Shown here in pieces: positions 54,719-64,000 of a stretch of 64,000 bases of DNA. The translations under genes and the position numbers were made by a program. The DNA comes from an uncultured Gammaproteobacteria bacterium (lineage in GTDB: Bacteria; Pseudomonadota; Gammaproteobacteria; Pseudomonadales; Pseudohongiellaceae): positions 124,001-188,000 of the forward strand of contig CAJXUA010000001.1 of NCBI GenBank assembly GCA_913060695.1, given 5' to 3'. Under the pieces are notes generated by a model. The model did no database searches, was not told the origin of the DNA, and saw only the letters and a program-made list of their open reading frames with translations. Within the stretch, counting starts at the first letter, position 1. Each line of letters begins with the position of its first letter.

Positions 54719-54954
54719 CAGTGCAGGGCGGCACTTCAGCAGCACGCGCGAAAGTAATAAATTACGCAGCAAATTAGATACTCCCGTTGGCGCAAAGCCT
54801 CTTGGCGCGAACATTGCCTCTTGGACTCTGGGTTTTGTGCTGCTTTGCTTCTACAAAAGTAGTAGAGGCGATGTTAATCTCATTGCGCTTCCCTATAAAT
54901 CTAACAAACTCCACTCTTTTCAAAGATGGTCTCAACCAGACCGAGGTAATTGGA

Positions 54955-57408
54955 ATGAATTTTAGGAATTCTCTAGGACGGGCATTGCGTTATTCGCGCA
55001 TAAATTGCTCTCGCGCCGTAGTGGCTCTTGCACTGTTATCGTTCACATCACTGTCCAGTGCACAGAGTTTGCCCTCTATCGAAGACAAAGTTGCGAATAC
55101 GACACGCATGGAAGGCTTCTTCAACATTTTTTGGGACGAAGCTAACGGCAAGATGTACTGGGAGATCGACAAGCTCGATACCGAGTTTCTCTATGCTATC
55201 TCCATGGCATCCGGCCTAGGCTCCAACCCTGTCGGCATCGACCGCGGCCAGCTAGGCGGTACTTATATATTGAGTGCTAAGCGAGTGGGTCCGAGAGTGC
55301 TTCTGGTCGAGCCCAATTACCGCTACCGTGCAGATAGTGCGAACCCATTGGAGCGACAGGCAGTCGTCGACGCCTTTGCGCCCTCGGTGCTGTGGGGCTT
55401 CGACATAGCAGCTACCAGCGGCAGCAGCATTCTAGTTGATGCCACTGACTTCTTCCTGCGCGATGCCCGTAACGTGATTGGCAATATTTCGCGCCGCAAT
55501 CAAGGCAACTATACCTTGGACAAAGGTCGCAGCGCTTTCTATCTCGAGAACACCAAGACATTCCCAGAGAATATCGAGATCGAAACGATGCTCACCTTTG
55601 GCAGCAATAATCCTGGTAATTTGGTAAATCAGGTCGCTGCCTCGGGCGAGTCTGTCACCTTGAGGCAGCATCATTCCTTTGTGAAGCTTCCGGATGACAA
55701 CTACAAGACTCGAGTCTCAGACCCTCGTATCGGCACCAATGGCCCGACTGTTTACGACTACAGCACGGCGATCGGCGACGACATGATGGTACGTCTGGTT
55801 GGTCGTCATCGCCTCGAGAAGAAAGACCCTAACGCTGCGCGCTCAGAGGCCGTTGAGCCTATTGTCTATTATGTCGACTCGGGTACGCCGGAGCCTGTCA
55901 AGAGTGCGCTGATTGCGGGCGCAAGTTGGTGGAATCAGGCTTACGAGGCCGCAGGATTCATCGATGCCTTTCAAGTTCGGGAGTTACCCGCGGGTGCCGA
56001 CCCGCAGGATGTGCGCTATCACATGATCCACTGGACTCATCGTCAGACTCGCGGCTACTCCTATGGTGCGTCCGTGATGGATCCGCGCACCGGAGAGATC
56101 ATTAAGGGCAATGTGAATCTTGGCAGCCTTCGTCTACGCCAAGACTATCTCCATGGACAGGGCCTAGTTCCCGGATTCGAATATCTTGAAGTGGTTGCGG
56201 ACAATAATGAGGCGTCCGTAAACATGGCGCTGGACAGAGTACGTCAGCTCTCCGCGCATGAAGTAGGGCATACCTTGGGTTTTCCGCACAATTATTTGGG
56301 CAGCGCTACTGGTCGAGAGAGTGTAATGGACTACCCGGCACCTTTGGTCGAGATAAGGGATGACGGAAAGCTGGATCTTTCTAATGCCTATCCCCAAAGA
56401 ATTGGCGAATACGATAAGTTGGCGGTTCGCTATGCTTACGAACAGTTCGCACCAGGCGCAGACGAGGCTGAAGAGTTAGCGAAGATTGTGCGCGAGAGTC
56501 TGGATCGAGGTCTATTGTTCATGGACCATAACAACAATAGTTTTGTGGGTGCTGGGCATCAGTTCGCAGGCGTCTGGGACAATGGCGACAACTTAGTCGA
56601 TCAACTTAAGCACGAGATCGAAGTGCGTCGCATAGGCTTGGCCAATTTTAGTGAGGCGATGATTCGCAATGGCGAGCCAATCTCAGAACTAGAGTATGTG
56701 CTGTTGCCTTTGTACATGCATCATCGCTTTCAGCTCAATTCTGCAGCGCAGAGCATAGGCGGCGCAGACTATCTCTACTCGCTTAGGGGCGACGGACAAG
56801 TGCCGTTTACGATTATCGATGGCGAGGAGCAAAGAGATGCATTGGAGACAGTGTTGTCCACTTTAGATGTAGACTTCCTCACGCTTCCGCAGAGCATACT
56901 CGCACTGCTGCCACCATCTGCATTCCGGCACAGTCAGGGCGAAGTATTCCCAGGTAACACCGGTTTGTTATTCGATGCGCTGGGCGCCGTAGAAGGCTCA
57001 GCGAACCTAACAGTCCAATCTGTTCTGCATCCGGAGAGAATGGCGCGACTAATCGCCTACGGCAGCATGGGTGACTATCCAAGCCTAGAAGAAGTAGTTG
57101 ATCGCCTATTAGAAGTGACATGGGGCGCTGATGTGCCAGATAGTGAGTATAAAACTGCGGTGTTGCACGTTGCCCAACGCGTGACAGTGAATGAGATGAT
57201 GGTGCAGGCAAGTAGTGATGAAAGTTCGGGTGAGGTCAAAGCAGTGCTTGCTGATCGTTTAAATAAATTGGCAGGGGAACTGGAAAGCATGCGCAATCCT
57301 AGTCCTTATCAGGCTAGCGCCGCGGCCGATATCCGCCGCTGGCAAGGGCGCTCTGAGGGCGCGATTCCAGGTCCAGCGTTGGAGATGCCTTCTGGCGACC
57401 CGATCTAA
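54955..57408 (+). CDS. Secreted zinc-dependent metalloprotease
   Basis: ATG 54955 is preferred because GAGG lies ahead and the signal peptide (VVALALLSFTSLSSAQ, about 27-42) then starts correctly; the frame is open for 56 codons more upstream without a signal. The 817-residue protein has a zinc site HEVGHTLGFPHN (HExxHxxGxxH) in its middle and a family-typical N-terminal half with RMEGFFNIFWDE. It resembles the DUF5117/DUF4953 zinc peptidases often exported by gammaproteobacteria. Substrate unknown. Confidence 0.85.
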   Translation: MNFRNSLGRALRYSRINCSRAVVALALLSFTSLSSAQSLPSIEDKVANTTRMEGFFNIFWDEANGKMYWEIDKLDTEFLYAISMASGLGSNPVGIDRGQLGGTYILSAKRVGPRVLLVEPNYRYRADSANPLERQAVVDAFAPSVLWGFDIAATSGSSILVDATDFFLRDARNVIGNISRRNQGNYTLDKGRSAFYLENTKTFPENIEIETMLTFGSNNPGNLVNQVAASGESVTLRQHHSFVKLPDDNYKTRVSDPRIGTNGPTVYDYSTAIGDDMMVRLVGRHRLEKKDPNAARSEAVEPIVYYVDSGTPEPVKSALIAGASWWNQAYEAAGFIDAFQVRELPAGADPQDVRYHMIHWTHRQTRGYSYGASVMDPRTGEIIKGNVNLGSLRLRQDYLHGQGLVPGFEYLEVVADNNEASVNMALDRVRQLSAHEVGHTLGFPHNYLGSATGRESVMDYPAPLVEIRDDGKLDLSNAYPQRIGEYDKLAVRYAYEQFAPGADEAEELAKIVRESLDRGLLFMDHNNNSFVGAGHQFAGVWDNGDNLVDQLKHEIEVRRIGLANFSEAMIRNGEPISELEYVLLPLYMHHRFQLNSAAQSIGGADYLYSLRGDGQVPFTIIDGEEQRDALETVLSTLDVDFLTLPQSILALLPPSAFRHSQGEVFPGNTGLLFDALGAVEGSANLTVQSVLHPERMARLIAYGSMGDYPSLEEVVDRLLEVTWGADVPDSEYKTAVLHVAQRVTVNEMMVQASSDESSGEVKAVLADRLNKLAGELESMRNPSPYQASAAADIRRWQGRSEGAIPGPALEMPSGDPI

Positions 57409-58635: not shown

Positions 58636-58808
58636 TAGACTAGGCCAGTCATTCCTACACTTAAGCTAAGGCTGGCAGTGATTCAGCTCGAGTATATTAA
58701 CTCAGCCGCATGGGCGGCCTAGAGAATTCAAGAAAGGGAGAATGCTATGAACGAACAAGATAAGGCCCTACAGGGACGTCGTCGTTGGTTGCTCGGTAGC
58801 CTTGGCGC
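58617..58808. repeat. 192-bp perfect direct repeat, copy 1
   Basis: This stretch is identical, base for base, to 59733-59924. It covers the end of the DUF2970 gene, the intergenic leader and the first 62 bases of the Tat protein gene. The period is 1,116 bp. Confidence 0.97.
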
Positions 58809-59445
58809 TGTGGCGGCAGGTGCCGCTGTTGTGTCTGCATCGAGTAATGCAGCCCAGTCTTCTGCGCCCACTGCAGGCTTCGTACCTGTGAAGCATGCGC
58901 AGGATGCATGGCTTAATGAGGTGACAGGGGGGCACCGTGCATTCTTAGATTCCGCCTCTACCGAGGGGGGACTAACGGCTATGCATTATGCCAACAATCT
59001 CCTATCGGTTCAGGCGGAGGATTATGCTGGCAGTGAGTCAGACTTCTCAGTAGTCGTATGCTTTCGACACGTTTCAACGCCGCTAGGCTTTAACGACGCG
59101 ATGTGGGCGAAATACGGTACGTCATTGAGCGCTTTCATGTCGTTCAATGACCCTAAAACAGATCAAGCCTTCATGGTGAATCCCTTGAGTATGTCTCGAT
59201 CCGATATGGCGAATCGCGGTCGCACCTTGACCGAGATGGCGGGCAGAGGCGTACAGTTTGCAATTTGTAATCGCGCCACGCGCGGAATCTCGGGAATGAT
59301 TGCACGCGCGACCGGGGGCGATGCCAATGCCGTTTATGAAGAGCTAGTAGGGAATATCGCCGAGAATGCCCGTATGGTGCCGGCTGGCGTAATGGCGCTT
59401 ACCCGCTCGCAAGAGTACGGGTATAGCCTCCTATACTCGGGCTAA
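58747..59445 (+). CDS. Tat-exported DsrE-like protein, copy 1
   Basis: The 232-residue product has a Tat signal (GRRRWLLGSLG, then a hydrophobic Ala-rich stretch, cleavage near NAAQS). The mature part has DsrE-like features: HRAFLDSAS near the start, LGFNDAMWAKYG in the centre and ARMVPAGVMALTRSQEYGYSLLY at the end. Members are soluble and exported folded. The nearby TsdA-like cytochrome suggests sulfur chemistry. An AAAGGGAG ribosome site precedes the ATG. It is paralogous to the gene 1,116 bp downstream. Confidence 0.78.
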   Translation: MNEQDKALQGRRRWLLGSLGAVAAGAAVVSASSNAAQSSAPTAGFVPVKHAQDAWLNEVTGGHRAFLDSASTEGGLTAMHYANNLLSVQAEDYAGSESDFSVVVCFRHVSTPLGFNDAMWAKYGTSLSAFMSFNDPKTDQAFMVNPLSMSRSDMANRGRTLTEMAGRGVQFAICNRATRGISGMIARATGGDANAVYEELVGNIAENARMVPAGVMALTRSQEYGYSLLYSG

Positions 59446-59751: not shown

Positions 59752-59924
59752 TAGACTAGGCCAGTCATTCCTACACTTAAGCTAAGGCTGGCAGTGATTC
59801 AGCTCGAGTATATTAACTCAGCCGCATGGGCGGCCTAGAGAATTCAAGAAAGGGAGAATGCTATGAACGAACAAGATAAGGCCCTACAGGGACGTCGTCG
59901 TTGGTTGCTCGGTAGCCTTGGCGC
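59733..59924. repeat. 192-bp perfect direct repeat, copy 2
   Basis: Identical to 58617-58808. It includes the leader, ribosome site and first codons of the second Tat gene. Confidence 0.97.
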
Positions 59925-60564
59925 GGTGGCGGCAGGTGCCGCAGTGGTGTCTGCATCGAGCAACGCAGCACAATCGTCTACGCCGGCAACGGGCTTCATG
60001 CCTGCGCGCCATACTCTGGACTCTTGGATGGGTGAGATGCCGGGTGTCCATCGGGCATTTTTAGATTCCTCAACATCCAATGGCGGCATTACTGCGCTCA
60101 ACTATGCGCATAATATTCTGCTAGTGCACGTCGATGATTACGGTGGCAGTGAGTTAGATTACGCGCTAGTGGTTTGCTATCGTCACCAGTCGACACCTTT
60201 AGGGTTCAACGACGCGATGTGGGCAAAATATAGCGCCGCCTTCAGCGCCTTCATGGGCCTTACTGACTCTAGAACTGAGCAAGCCTTTATGGTGAATCCC
60301 TTAGATATACCAGGACGTTCAGACCTTGCGAGCCGCGGCCACACGCTTAGCGAGATGGCTGGCAGGGGCGCGCGTTATGCGGTCTGCAATCGTGCGACGC
60401 ACTCTGTTTCTGGTTTCCTTGCGCGTTCCACAGGCGGCAATGCCGATGCCATCTATGAAGAGCTTGCCGCTAATCTTATCGAGCACGCTCGCATGGTGCC
60501 CGCCGGTGTGATGGCGGCTACCCGTGCGCAAGAATACGGTTACAGCTTCTTGTACGCGGGCTGA
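59863..60564 (+). CDS. Tat-exported DsrE-like protein, copy 2
   Basis: This 233-residue paralogue of the gene 1,116 bp upstream has an identical Tat signal (GRRRWLLGSLG) and DNA identical through the leader. The mature region has diverged strongly (for example HYANNLLSVQ against NYAHNILLVH) while keeping LGFNDAMWAKY, ARMVPAGVMA and the C-terminal EYGYSFLYAG. Both copies are intact, so both may work. The convergent TsdA-like gene ends 5 bp past its stop. Confidence 0.78.
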   Translation: MNEQDKALQGRRRWLLGSLGAVAAGAAVVSASSNAAQSSTPATGFMPARHTLDSWMGEMPGVHRAFLDSSTSNGGITALNYAHNILLVHVDDYGGSELDYALVVCYRHQSTPLGFNDAMWAKYSAAFSAFMGLTDSRTEQAFMVNPLDIPGRSDLASRGHTLSEMAGRGARYAVCNRATHSVSGFLARSTGGNADAIYEELAANLIEHARMVPAGVMAATRAQEYGYSFLYAG

Positions 60565-60569
60565 AGCCT

Positions 60570-61511
60570 CTATTCCAAATTGCGATAGAACTCCCGTATA
60601 GGTCCGAAAGGACCTATTCGGTGCTGTTCAATCGGGAACGAATCGACATAGGGGCCATAAGGTCCATCCACAGGTTTAGTCGCGCGATCTGGATAATCAA
60701 CTTCTAGGTTCTCCATGTGGGGCCGTTCCTTAGAGTTTATATACGCGGCCACATCGAATGCCTGGTCGTCGGTCAGGTCGGGCTGCCCTAGTGGCATGCG
60801 TGCCTTGATGAAATTAGCGGCTGTCAGCACCCTGTGCATACCCGCGCCATCATTGAAACTGTCTGGCCCCCATAGCGGCGGGAATAAATAGCCCTCGCGA
60901 ATGTCTAGAGTGGCCTGTAAACCCAAACCATCATCGCCATGGCACACTTGGCAGCGTTGCTCATAAACCAATTGTCCGGCCTCTGGGTTCGCTGCTCGTG
61001 GTGGCTCGTTGAAGGCCTCGGGTTCGTTTGCCTCTCTTCGCGTTGCCCCCATCGCGGCAAACTGATCACCAAGACTCTCTATATAGGCGGCCATCGAGCG
61101 CAATTCGGCACTATCGCGGGAGAGCATAGTTCCGTTCATGCTGCGCTCCATGCAGCCATTGATACGATCTAACAAGTCGCCTTCGACGCCGTCACGCCCT
61201 GAGAAGCGAGGGTAGCGAGAAGAGGCCCCGAGTAAAGATAAGGTGCCCGGCTTGGTGCCGCTGTCTAGGTGGCAAGAAGAGCAATCGAGATTGCTTCCAC
61301 TAAAACGCATCGATGGGTCTTCGTGATTCGGACCCATCAGTACAGATGTTTCCCGTATCAAGGCGCGACCATACTCTACAGAGACTTCGGTGCCATTGGC
61401 GTCTAGGTCTGGGGTTTCTTGTAAAAGCCACATGGAGCCGAGCACTATGCCAACGCCGAGAACGCCACTGGCCAGCACGCTCATCATTAGACTCCCACGT
61501 TGATTACTCAT
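60570..61511 (-). CDS. tsdA: Diheme cytochrome c, TsdA-like thiosulfate dehydrogenase
   Basis: This 313-residue protein has an N-terminal membrane anchor (about 9-30) and two heme-c motifs: Cys77-Cys80-His81 and Cys187-Cys190-His191. The TsdA core is present: LDCSSCHLDSGTKPGT, DRINGCMERSMNG, where Cys120 matches the unusual axial heme-1 Cys ligand, and FPPLWGPDSFNDGAGM. TsdA joins two thiosulfates into tetrathionate or does the reverse. The start overlaps the upstream small gene by ATGA, so translation is coupled to the oxidase operon. Confidence 0.88.
   Translation of the reverse strand: MSNQRGSLMMSVLASGVLGVGIVLGSMWLLQETPDLDANGTEVSVEYGRALIRETSVLMGPNHEDPSMRFSGSNLDCSSCHLDSGTKPGTLSLLGASSRYPRFSGRDGVEGDLLDRINGCMERSMNGTMLSRDSAELRSMAAYIESLGDQFAAMGATRREANEPEAFNEPPRAANPEAGQLVYEQRCQVCHGDDGLGLQATLDIREGYLFPPLWGPDSFNDGAGMHRVLTAANFIKARMPLGQPDLTDDQAFDVAAYINSKERPHMENLEVDYPDRATKPVDGPYGPYVDSFPIEQHRIGPFGPIREFYRNLE
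60598..60617. terminator. Hairpin after Tat gene copy 2, within the tsdA 3' end
   Basis: A perfect 8-bp stem ATAGGTCC/GGACCTAT with a GAAA tetraloop lies 33 bp past the Tat gene stop and inside the convergent tsdA-like coding end. No T run. Confidence 0.45.
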
Positions 61512-61684
61512 TGCTGACCCCTCTTAGGTTCTTGCGCAGCGCTATTGTCGAAGCTTTCCAATTGGCGTTGAAACTGGTGTTTGGGCTGTTCCACTTGCGC
61601 TCTTATGCGCGGACTAAGTAGATACACCACCGTAAACGCAACGGCTGCGAATAGTGAGCCCCAAACTATAATAGATGTGATCAT
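61508..61684 (-). CDS. CcoQ-like 58-residue membrane protein
   Basis: Translation of 61684-61508 gives 58 residues with one N-terminal membrane helix (about 4-23, SIIVWGSLFAAVAFTVVYLL), then a charged Gln/Arg/Glu tail. Size and place, right after oxidase subunits, fit CcoQ, which stabilises cbb3 oxidase, though sequence is too short for proof. Its ATG overlaps the oxidase stop and its stop overlaps the cytochrome start, each as ATGA. Confidence 0.75.
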   Translation of the reverse strand: MITSIIVWGSLFAAVAFTVVYLLSPRIRAQVEQPKHQFQRQLESFDNSAAQEPKRGQQ

Positions 61685-64000
61685 GGTGCGCTCCTATCGC
61701 TAATATCGGCAAAGAACTCGCCAACATAGTGTGCCACGGCGTTAATTTCGTCGCTACTTAGTCGGTCCGTCCAAGGCGCCATAGATGTCCCCGCAACGCC
61801 GTTCTCTAATATCTTAATCCGCTCGGCTAGGCTAGCGCGCACACCTCGCATGTCAGTAGGTGCGATGGGCAGCTGTGCTGCCGCGAAGCCGTTGCCTGCC
61901 CCGTTGTCGCCGTGGCATTCGGCACAGTGCGTCGCATAGATTACAGCTCCGCTAGCAACAAGACCGGTGTTCGCTGCTTCTTGCTCAAGCGCAGAGAAAC
62001 TTTGCACGACACTTGCCAGTGCACTGCGCTCGGCAGTGCTCAGGTCGCGCCATGCCGGCATCGCAGAACCGTGTACGCCGTTCCACAGGACATCCGCCAA
62101 CATGCTGCGGGTGTACTCGCGTACCGCAAGATTCTTAGGCTGAGGTTCCAGCCACTGCGCCGCAACACCGTCTCCTTGCGCTTGGTCGCCGTGACAGCCG
62201 GCGCAGTTGTTCAGCCAAAGGCTTTGGCCTAATGCCAGATCTCCGCTATCCGCTAAAGAAGGGGCGTTGCCCCGCATTCGAGTGCGGGCCGGGTGTGCAT
62301 TTAGCAAGGGGGCGTCGAAGGACATCTGTGCCCAACGATTGTCCGGAGCAGCGGCGCGTGCAGCCTCGTCGCCCTCGGGGTAAGCAAGCTCTCGGGCTCG
62401 CCCTAATGAGTCGATGTAAGCCACGAGATCCTGTGCGTCTCGCTTAGGACGTGTAGCACTGCCGTCGAATAACTGTGTATAGGCGGGCATTATCGAGGCG
62501 GGCACAAGTGCGCGGGGATCATATAGGTGCGCATATTGCCAGTCTGCTGTACGCGTGCCCCCCGCGCGACTCAGGTCTGGGCCTATGCGACGGGTACCAA
62601 GCATGTGCGGAAACTCCAAGCGACCTTCCCAAGCGAGGGTGGGAGCGCCGAAGCGAGCGATGTCTGCCTCGGTGTAGCGGACCTGCTGGCTATGACAATA
62701 GGAGCAGCCTTCACGGCCGTAGACGTCGCGGCCACGAGCCTCGGCGGCGGTGTAGGGTAGAGGGCTGCCTGGCGCCATCGCCACACTCTGCTGCTCCAAC
62801 ACCTGTCTCGGTAAGAGGCCTAGTAGTGATACGGAGAGCACGAAGAACACAATGCCCGCAGCGCAGGCGACCACATAGGACATTGTCAGGCCACGGGAAG
62901 AGGTGTGCAGCTCGGAATGGGACGCTAGTGAATCTGTTTTCTGCGTTATGTGTGAAGCCGCAAGGGCTTGTGCGCCCGCGCCTCGCTCTCCTGTCACCAT
63001 GCCAATCAATAAGACGATAAAGCCAGTGGCGACGGGGATGGCCGAAATAGAACGCACGATCCAGTAGGGGCGAGAGGCCTGCAGGGATTCGATCCAAGGA
63101 GAGCCGTCTTGCCATAGCTGTCCCTGCACGATCCCGGCGAGCGTGAGATCGATGACCATGATGCTTATGCCGACTACGAGCAGCCAATAGGCCCACTCGA
63201 AAGCCTTCGCGTTATAGCGCGCCTGCGGCATGCGCTGCCATGCATGTAATATGCCGCCGATAGCGGCGAAGGTAGCGAAGCCGAGCATGGCCAAATGCGA
63301 GTGGCCGATTACCCAGTCGGTAAAATGTACCGCTTGGTTCAGACTCATATTGGCTTGCATGGAACCCTGGATACTCACGATCAAATAGAACACGACCGCC
63401 ATCGAAACGAAACGCAGGCCAATATCCTTAGGAATTAGCCCCGCCCCACGTTGGGAGAGCATGAGGTTGCTGACGACTATGATTACCACTACGCCCAATA
63501 GGAAAGAGGCGAGGATTGCCGTCATCTGCGCTTCCATAGGGATCACGGAGAAGATGTAGTGATGGGTGCCATTGAGGGGGTAGAGGAAGAACAATCCCCA
63601 GAAGCCCAACATGGAAAGGAAATGGCTGAAGATCGGTTTGCCTGTGGAGGCAGGAATAACGAAATAAAGAATCGCGAGCGCCATTGGGGTGACGAATAGA
63701 CCAACCGCGTCATGAATCCACAGGCCACTGAACGCGGCGCCAGCGGCACCGGGTACGAACTCAGGGGCGAAGTTGCCCATAGGATAAGAGAGGAGGGTGA
63801 ATACTAGACCCCCAATAAGATACCAGCTTGAAACATAGAGATCGGTGACGCCGCGGCGGATGAAGGGCGGTAAGAACTGAAACGCCGCCAGCGCTAAGCC
63901 TACGATAACGAAGACGTCGACTGCCATGGGGAACTCGGCCCATTCCAGTGGCTGACTAACGCCGGACAATACGAGTATCCAGCCGGGAATCATGACTGCG
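61681..64000 (-). CDS. Fused cbb3-type cytochrome c oxidase (CcoN-CcoO-CcoP-like), N-terminus outside window
   Basis: The frame is open to the window edge; residue numbers here are from Met at 63993. Residues 1-335 are the CcoN catalytic subunit from about its middle on. They include candidate copper-site His94 (IHDAVG) and His144-His145 (GTHHYIFSVIP), and heme-ligand candidates His231 and His233 (IGHSHLAML). A CcoO-type anchor (about 371-393) leads into heme motif Cys430-Cys433-His434 (EGCSYCHSQQVR) and RIGPDLSRAGG. Residues 590-770 hold two more heme domains, Cys597-Cys600-His601 and Cys690-Cys693-His694, with Met645 and Met738 as likely distal ligands, resembling the CcoP diheme. No membrane helix of CcoP's own is present. 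It should reduce oxygen and pump protons. Confidence 0.85.
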   Translation of the reverse strand, partial: AVMIPGWILVLSGVSQPLEWAEFPMAVDVFVIVGLALAAFQFLPPFIRRGVTDLYVSSWYLIGGLVFTLLSYPMGNFAPEFVPGAAGAAFSGLWIHDAVGLFVTPMALAILYFVIPASTGKPIFSHFLSMLGFWGLFFLYPLNGTHHYIFSVIPMEAQMTAILASFLLGVVVIIVVSNLMLSQRGAGLIPKDIGLRFVSMAVVFYLIVSIQGSMQANMSLNQAVHFTDWVIGHSHLAMLGFATFAAIGGILHAWQRMPQARYNAKAFEWAYWLLVVGISIMVIDLTLAGIVQGQLWQDGSPWIESLQASRPYWIVRSISAIPVATGFIVLLIGMVTGERGAGAQALAASHITQKTDSLASHSELHTSSRGLTMSYVVACAAGIVFFVLSVSLLGLLPRQVLEQQSVAMAPGSPLPYTAAEARGRDVYGREGCSYCHSQQVRYTEADIARFGAPTLAWEGRLEFPHMLGTRRIGPDLSRAGGTRTADWQYAHLYDPRALVPASIMPAYTQLFDGSATRPKRDAQDLVAYIDSLGRARELAYPEGDEAARAAAPDNRWAQMSFDAPLLNAHPARTRMRGNAPSLADSGDLALGQSLWLNNCAGCHGDQAQGDGVAAQWLEPQPKNLAVREYTRSMLADVLWNGVHGSAMPAWRDLSTAERSALASVVQSFSALEQEAANTGLVASGAVIYATHCAECHGDNGAGNGFAAAQLPIAPTDMRGVRASLAERIKILENGVAGTSMAPWTDRLSSDEINAVAHYVGEFFADISDRSAP

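Follow-up and report, generated by a model that had tools for sequence, protein, structure and literature searches.

A fused cbb3-like oxidase encoded beside thiosulfate dehydrogenase genes, and its probable role as a terminal oxidase for sulfur-oxyanion electrons

A stretch of 64,000 nucleotides from an uncultured gammaproteobacterium (hereafter the window) carries at its edge a gene that joins the parts of a cbb3-type oxidase in one polypeptide and is followed directly by tsdA, the gene for a dihaem thiosulfate dehydrogenase. From gene content and ligand residues, we infer that the fused enzyme is probably a terminal oxidase dedicated to electrons from periplasmic thiosulfate or sulfite. The first-pass annotation of this DNA, which had recognized the fusion, missed tsdA as the next gene, the retention of this pairing in relatives, and the placement of the enzyme on a divergent, non-canonical branch. 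To our knowledge, the oxidase that receives the electrons of TsdA has rarely been settled.

The part of the fused gene in the window is the 3′ portion of a single open frame that leaves the window edge (Table 1). Its continuation in the same genome reaches a GTG start preceded by AAGGGGA, which supplies the full CcoN portion and gives an intact protein of 883 aa with a computed mass of 95.6 kDa without haems. Pfam assigns residues 23-431 to COX1 and 493-626 to FixO (PF02433, 123 bits against a cut-off of 29.6), followed by two Cytochrome_CBB3 stretches (best 792-870). In a predicted model of a relative 92% identical to the fused protein (L119; mean pLDDT 78.2), 12 long helices make up the CcoN part, and a single long helix, the CcoO-type anchor, is followed by soluble haem domains. 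As this model has no membrane-length helix past residues 479-519, the fused oxidase is predicted to lack a separate CcoP anchor. The profiles, the CxxCH motifs and the model thus agree with the initial description of one frame holding CcoN, a CcoO anchor with its haem, and two CcoP-like haem domains. Of the CcoN copper and haem ligands that it described, those of copper and H344 and H346 lie in the window, as does Y251; H67, the first haem b ligand, lies outside. It is plausible from this architecture that the fusion tethers the electron-entry domain. TsdB was considered as the source of the dihaem arm and rejected: the TsdBA chain 5lo9 was absent from the matches of the whole chain (E<=0.01) and from those of its C-terminal half (E<=0.5), whereas CcoP chains were present.

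Table 1. Positions in the window of the fused oxidase gene, its parts and the associated genes (residue numbers are those of each protein).
Feature	Position	Strand	Remarks
Fused CcoN-CcoO-dihaem c oxidase	61681..64000	-	About residues 112-883 of 883; 5′ end at about 64332, beyond the window
CcoN-like (COX1) part within the window	63040..64000	-	CuB ligands H207, H257, H258; active-site Y251; haem ligands H344, H346
CcoO-type membrane anchor helix	62776..62898	-	Residues 479-519 in the L119 model
CcoO/FixO domain, one haem c	62455..62856	-	CxxCH at 543
First CcoP-like cytochrome c domain	61987..62244	-	CxxCH at 710; without anchor; limits approximate
Second CcoP-like cytochrome c domain	61723..61959	-	CxxCH at 803
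tsdA, dihaem thiosulfate dehydrogenase	60570..61511	-	C120, CxxCH at 77 and 187, M239; follows the oxidase gene after 169 bp
Protein T	59863..60564	+	Has a twin-arginine leader and a DsrE-like fold; convergent with tsdA
Protein T, second copy	58747..59445	+	69% identical to the first

All nine full-length family proteins examined (883-917 aa, the window protein among them) carry these three CxxCH motifs, and matches at E<=1e-80 occur in 40 of 137 genomes from the same taxonomic family (source genome counted), in five of eight genera; the fusion is therefore not the product of chance or of a lost stop codon. Sequencing or assembly error, a concern raised with the original observation, is ruled out by the single-gene form of 38 of the 72 relative loci retrieved in one genome scan. 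Another 22 loci have a two-gene form, in which N is followed by O-c-c, and 12 are partial. In the two-gene form the N frame always ends in ATGA or GTGA (22 of 22, including the broken locus L163), with a possible start codon overlapping the stop, an arrangement that suggests a way in which a fusion can arise. The oxidase is broken into several frames in L144 and L163, presumably by frameshift or assembly error. Most of the 72 loci come from records titled as Gammaproteobacteria or Acidobacteriota; two Planctomycetota titles and the alphaproteobacterium Carideicomes alvinocaridis also occur.

When 369 genomes sampled across the class were searched and two candidates were scored in each, 85 genomes had a match at E<=1e-50, and L043 (37% identity, 971 aa) was the only candidate besides the window gene that spanned all parts without a stop. 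The family proved sparse in later searches covering 295, 294 and 297 genomes, where one, two and six genomes, respectively, matched at E<=1e-100. Three loci from these searches (L176-L178) were already among the 72, and only two family loci, L169 and L179, came from outside them. A CcoN tree was built from 83 of 103 gathered rows, omitting one window duplicate, six partial-locus rows and 13 canonical rows. The 61 family rows lie on one side of a starred branch and the 18 canonical rows are distant; L043, L047, L050 and L051 are sister to the family. A starred group (97) unites 34 of the 39 fused rows, each from the window or from a Pseudomonadota-titled record, and the other five (L117, L118, L121, L122 and L148) are placed outside it. 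The fusion may still have had a single origin. Sister loci L047 and L050 (longer versions, L181 and L182) have a separate CcoN, a long CcoO-c-c gene and, before them, a small monohaem cytochrome.

TsdA enzymes are known from many bacteria (e.g. PMC12345210). The window protein matches the solved thiosulfate dehydrogenase of Allochromatium vinosum (4wq7, 4v2k) with an E value of 1.6e-37 and scores 40.8 bits on PF21342 (cut-off 27). The cysteine ligand, both CxxCH motifs and the methionine ligand of the A. vinosum enzyme are retained, both in the window protein and throughout the 56 TsdA rows compared (window plus 55 loci). It differs from A. vinosum TsdA in having Arg in place of the haem-2 Lys, as do 50 of the 56 rows in total, and in being encoded directly behind an oxidase gene.

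This placement recurs in the relatives. Among the 58 loci with at least 600 bp of downstream sequence (the other 14 of the 72 being the 12 partial loci and two with short flanks), which include many close relatives and are not independent events, TsdA lies directly downstream of the oxidase in 55: 34 of the 37 single-gene loci and all 21 two-gene loci. With the broken L144 added, both genes are seen in 56 loci, and in each of them TsdA is downstream and on the same strand. The gap between oxidase and tsdA in these 56 loci, taken up to the first possible start codon, ranges from -76 to 250 bp, and in L117 and L118 the two frames overlap by 4 bp. In genomes of the same taxonomic family, a set overlapping the 72, TsdA stands beside the oxidase in 13 of 14 loci, and the remaining one (L037) ends inside the oxidase. 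Besides oxidase, T (see below) and TsdA, no group of neighbours with frames of at least 100 aa recurs in more than nine of the 72 loci. The contrast set for neighbours consists of three sister-clade loci (L180-L182), as the canonical ccoN flanks fetched were short; with about 5-9 kb of flank, these three have no TsdA or SorA adjoining the oxidase. In L182, a 152-aa monohaem protein beside the oxidase gives a weak TsdA match (22% identity).

The three loci of the 58 that have no TsdA (L121, L122 and L148) instead carry, directly upstream and on the same strand, genes for a molybdenum enzyme resembling SorA and a monohaem cytochrome resembling SorB. These assignments are of a SorAB-like kind, with SorA scores of 517.3 (L148) and 468.9 (L122) under the NCBIfam curated cut-off of 600 and a SorB score of 65.9 (L148) under its cut-off of 93; the remaining SorAB-like loci were identified by blastp to L148 (419-535 bits for SorA, 64-107 bits for SorB). 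Both family loci from outside the 72 fit the pairing with a sulfur enzyme, L169 having the order SorA, SorB, oxidase and L179 the order N, O-c-c, TsdA, T. A distant SorA-like gene (32% identity) also occurs in L124 (14159-15460), a few kilobases from a TsdA-linked oxidase.

Gene pairing can mean co-regulation only, and the fused enzyme might then be an ordinary cytochrome c oxidase drawing on the general cytochrome c pool. Both its fold and its ligands are of the cbb3 type. Moreover, in five of 16 family genomes (G015, G026, G021, G430 and G427) the sole further COX1-family protein found has a score above 450 bits, which we read as the range of non-cbb3 oxidases, and the fused enzyme may therefore be the only C-family oxidase there. 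We nevertheless consider this alternative unlikely, given that every one of the 58 loci has either TsdA (55) or SorAB-like genes (3), that the pattern spans Pseudomonadota-, Acidobacteriota- and Planctomycetota-titled records, and that oxidase and tsdA frames overlap in two loci.

In an alignment to the cbb3 chain 3mk7_A, the six histidine ligands of haem b, haem b3 and CuB and the active-site Tyr251 of the fused protein match, and Glu323 is replaced by Gln. All 61 family rows (partial loci excluded) retain the six histidines and also Tyr251, the latter in position at least, since its cross-link is not visible in sequence. Trp203 is Gly and Glu323 is Gln (P. stutzeri numbering) in the same 61 rows, whereas all 31 canonical rows have Trp and Glu. 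Gly203 and Gln322 are common to family and sister rows (65 of 65), whereas Asp208 marks the family alone (61 of 61). Besides the histidines and Tyr251, the fused oxidase shares with canonical CcoNOP (3mk7) a CcoO with one anchor and one haem c, and a dihaem module. It differs in forming one chain in place of separate N, O and P genes, in lacking an anchored CcoP, in having Gly203 and Gln323, and in scoring 162.1 bits on the ccoN equivalog TIGR00780, for which 583.15 are required. By these comparisons the fused family is a divergent branch rather than a canonical cbb3 oxidase with its subunits joined. Two NCBIfam families, PRK14485 (CcoN-CcoO fusions) and PRK14486 (CcoO-cytochrome c fusions), have the domain order of parts of the fused oxidase, which scores far too low for either: 296.7 bits against a curated cut-off of 1080 for the first, and 157.5 bits against 447 for the second.

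The same genome also has a separate operon with canonical ccoN, ccoO and ccoP genes (L006, 15568-18722), which lies beyond the window, some 10-13 kb upstream from the fused gene; the fused protein is 27% identical to this CcoN. Behind them lie a FixS match and accessory genes that presumably correspond to ccoG and ccoI. FixS was set aside as a sign of shared maturation: it occurs in four of 16 genomes, yet there are also genomes that have a further CcoN-like protein but lack FixS (e.g. G030).

The distance from canonical CcoN, together with the nitric oxide reductase chains 3o0r_B and 4xyd_A among the further Foldseek matches of the L119 model, could be taken to indicate a haem-copper nitric oxide reductase rather than an oxidase. 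We regard this as very improbable. The seven best matches of the model are cbb3 CcoN chains, and the cbb3-type Tyr251 is invariant with the three CuB histidines in 61 of 61 family rows; we know of no nitric oxide reductase with the cbb3-type active-site tyrosine. The genome moreover carries a separate protein (L004) that we take to be qNOR-like.

A fusion of three cbb3 subunits has a precedent, in a 954-aa protein of Nitrospina gracilis (Lucker et al. 2013, PMC3578206), and the oxidase of Nitrospira marina is described as highly similar (PMC8115632). The first-pass annotation, which left open how rare such proteins are, was right in its N-O-P-like reading; the fusion itself is not unprecedented, which goes part of the way towards the existing description of relatives that was to count against it. 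Like the window protein, the Nitrospina fusion is a single chain with Gly203 in which the CcoN part is joined to three haem c sites, one of CcoO type and two of CcoP type. It differs around the CuB ligand, where it is given His202, Tyr205 and Tyr208; in our family the first of these positions holds Ser (33 of the 39 fused rows and all 22 two-gene rows), the second Trp and the third Asp. The Nitrospina residues are found in the sister-clade protein L043, and the sister rows share the His202/Gly203/Tyr208 set given for Nitrospina and Sinorhizobium (PMC3578206). Nitrospina gracilis is a nitrite oxidizer, and the relevant passages of that paper mention no tsdA neighbour. The matches listed in the open-access literature include no description of a cbb3-like fusion with tsdA or sorA as its neighbour. 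As far as those matches show, it is thus the sulfur-enzyme gene context that is new, the three-subunit fusion being already known.

A third component of most TsdA-linked loci is the exported protein T (Table 1), found in 50 of 58 loci: 50 of 55 with TsdA, and none of the three with SorAB-like genes. T was likewise not found at the SorAB-like locus L169. Of the 56 loci with oxidase and TsdA, 24 have T upstream on the same strand, 23 have it downstream on the opposite strand, three have it placed otherwise and six lack it; the distance can be as much as several kilobases. All 26 aligned T proteins share the twin-arginine pair, C175 and H108. A PDB profile search with T found nothing useful. Foldseek with a model of T (pLDDT 87.6) matched 1l1s (E 1.6e-4) and 2pd2 (E 4.1e-4), each with probability 1.0, at TM scores of 0.72-0.74 by target but 0.36-0.37 by query; we take both structures to be DsrE-like proteins, and the fold of T to be DsrE-like. 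T also has a distant profile match to the thiosulfate dehydrogenase family NF052225, weak and present in four of seven T proteins scanned (best 8.7e-8), which reaches 31.8 of the 300 bits of the curated cut-off. Second, more distant T-like copies are present in L127, L128, L130, L131, L132 and L142. Elsewhere in the window, 54787-57408 encodes a large Met-zincin-type protein (PF16313, PF17148) that is unrelated to the fused oxidase.

With the fused enzyme as a dedicated oxidase, TsdA would couple two thiosulfates into tetrathionate in the periplasm, releasing two electrons. These would enter the tethered dihaem arm and pass via the CcoO haem to haem b and then to the haem b3/CuB site, where O2 would be reduced to water. 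TsdA would be replaced in a minority lineage by a SorAB-like sulfite dehydrogenase. The probable role of T, in which one cysteine is invariant, is to bind or relay thiosulfate or tetrathionate. Metallosphaera cuprina DsrE3A reacts with tetrathionate and hands on thiosulfate (PMC4175335); the match to NF052225, which is taken to be of the A. ferrooxidans AFE_0042 type (PMC6335251), points likewise. The potential of the thiosulfate/tetrathionate couple, +198 mV (PMC9562282), suits electron entry at the level of cytochrome c. Set against the dedicated oxidase, besides possible co-regulation, are the absence of Trp203 and Glu323 from the family, the sub-cut-off SorAB scores, and the properties of TsdA itself. 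TsdA enzymes are bidirectional, and residues at haem 2 influence the direction (PMC5146829), so that with Arg for Lys in most rows TsdA might act as a tetrathionate reductase independent of the adjoining oxidase, a reading that we give the least credence of all since the constant haem-copper oxidase partner favours oxidation and SorAB-like genes, an oxidative donor, replace TsdA in one lineage.

The dedicated oxidase can be carried further, more tentatively, to a self-contained sulfur-oxyanion:O2 family. TsdA or SorB would possibly dock on the dihaem arm without a soluble cytochrome c, the donor having been exchanged while the oxidase stayed, and T would deliver or remove the sulfur compound. 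A natural single-chain cbb3-like oxidase without two canonical residues would be a tool for studying the requirements of O2 reduction and proton pumping, and the conserved oxidase partner would allow thiosulfate oxidation linked to O2 to be recognized from the genes of uncultured bacteria.
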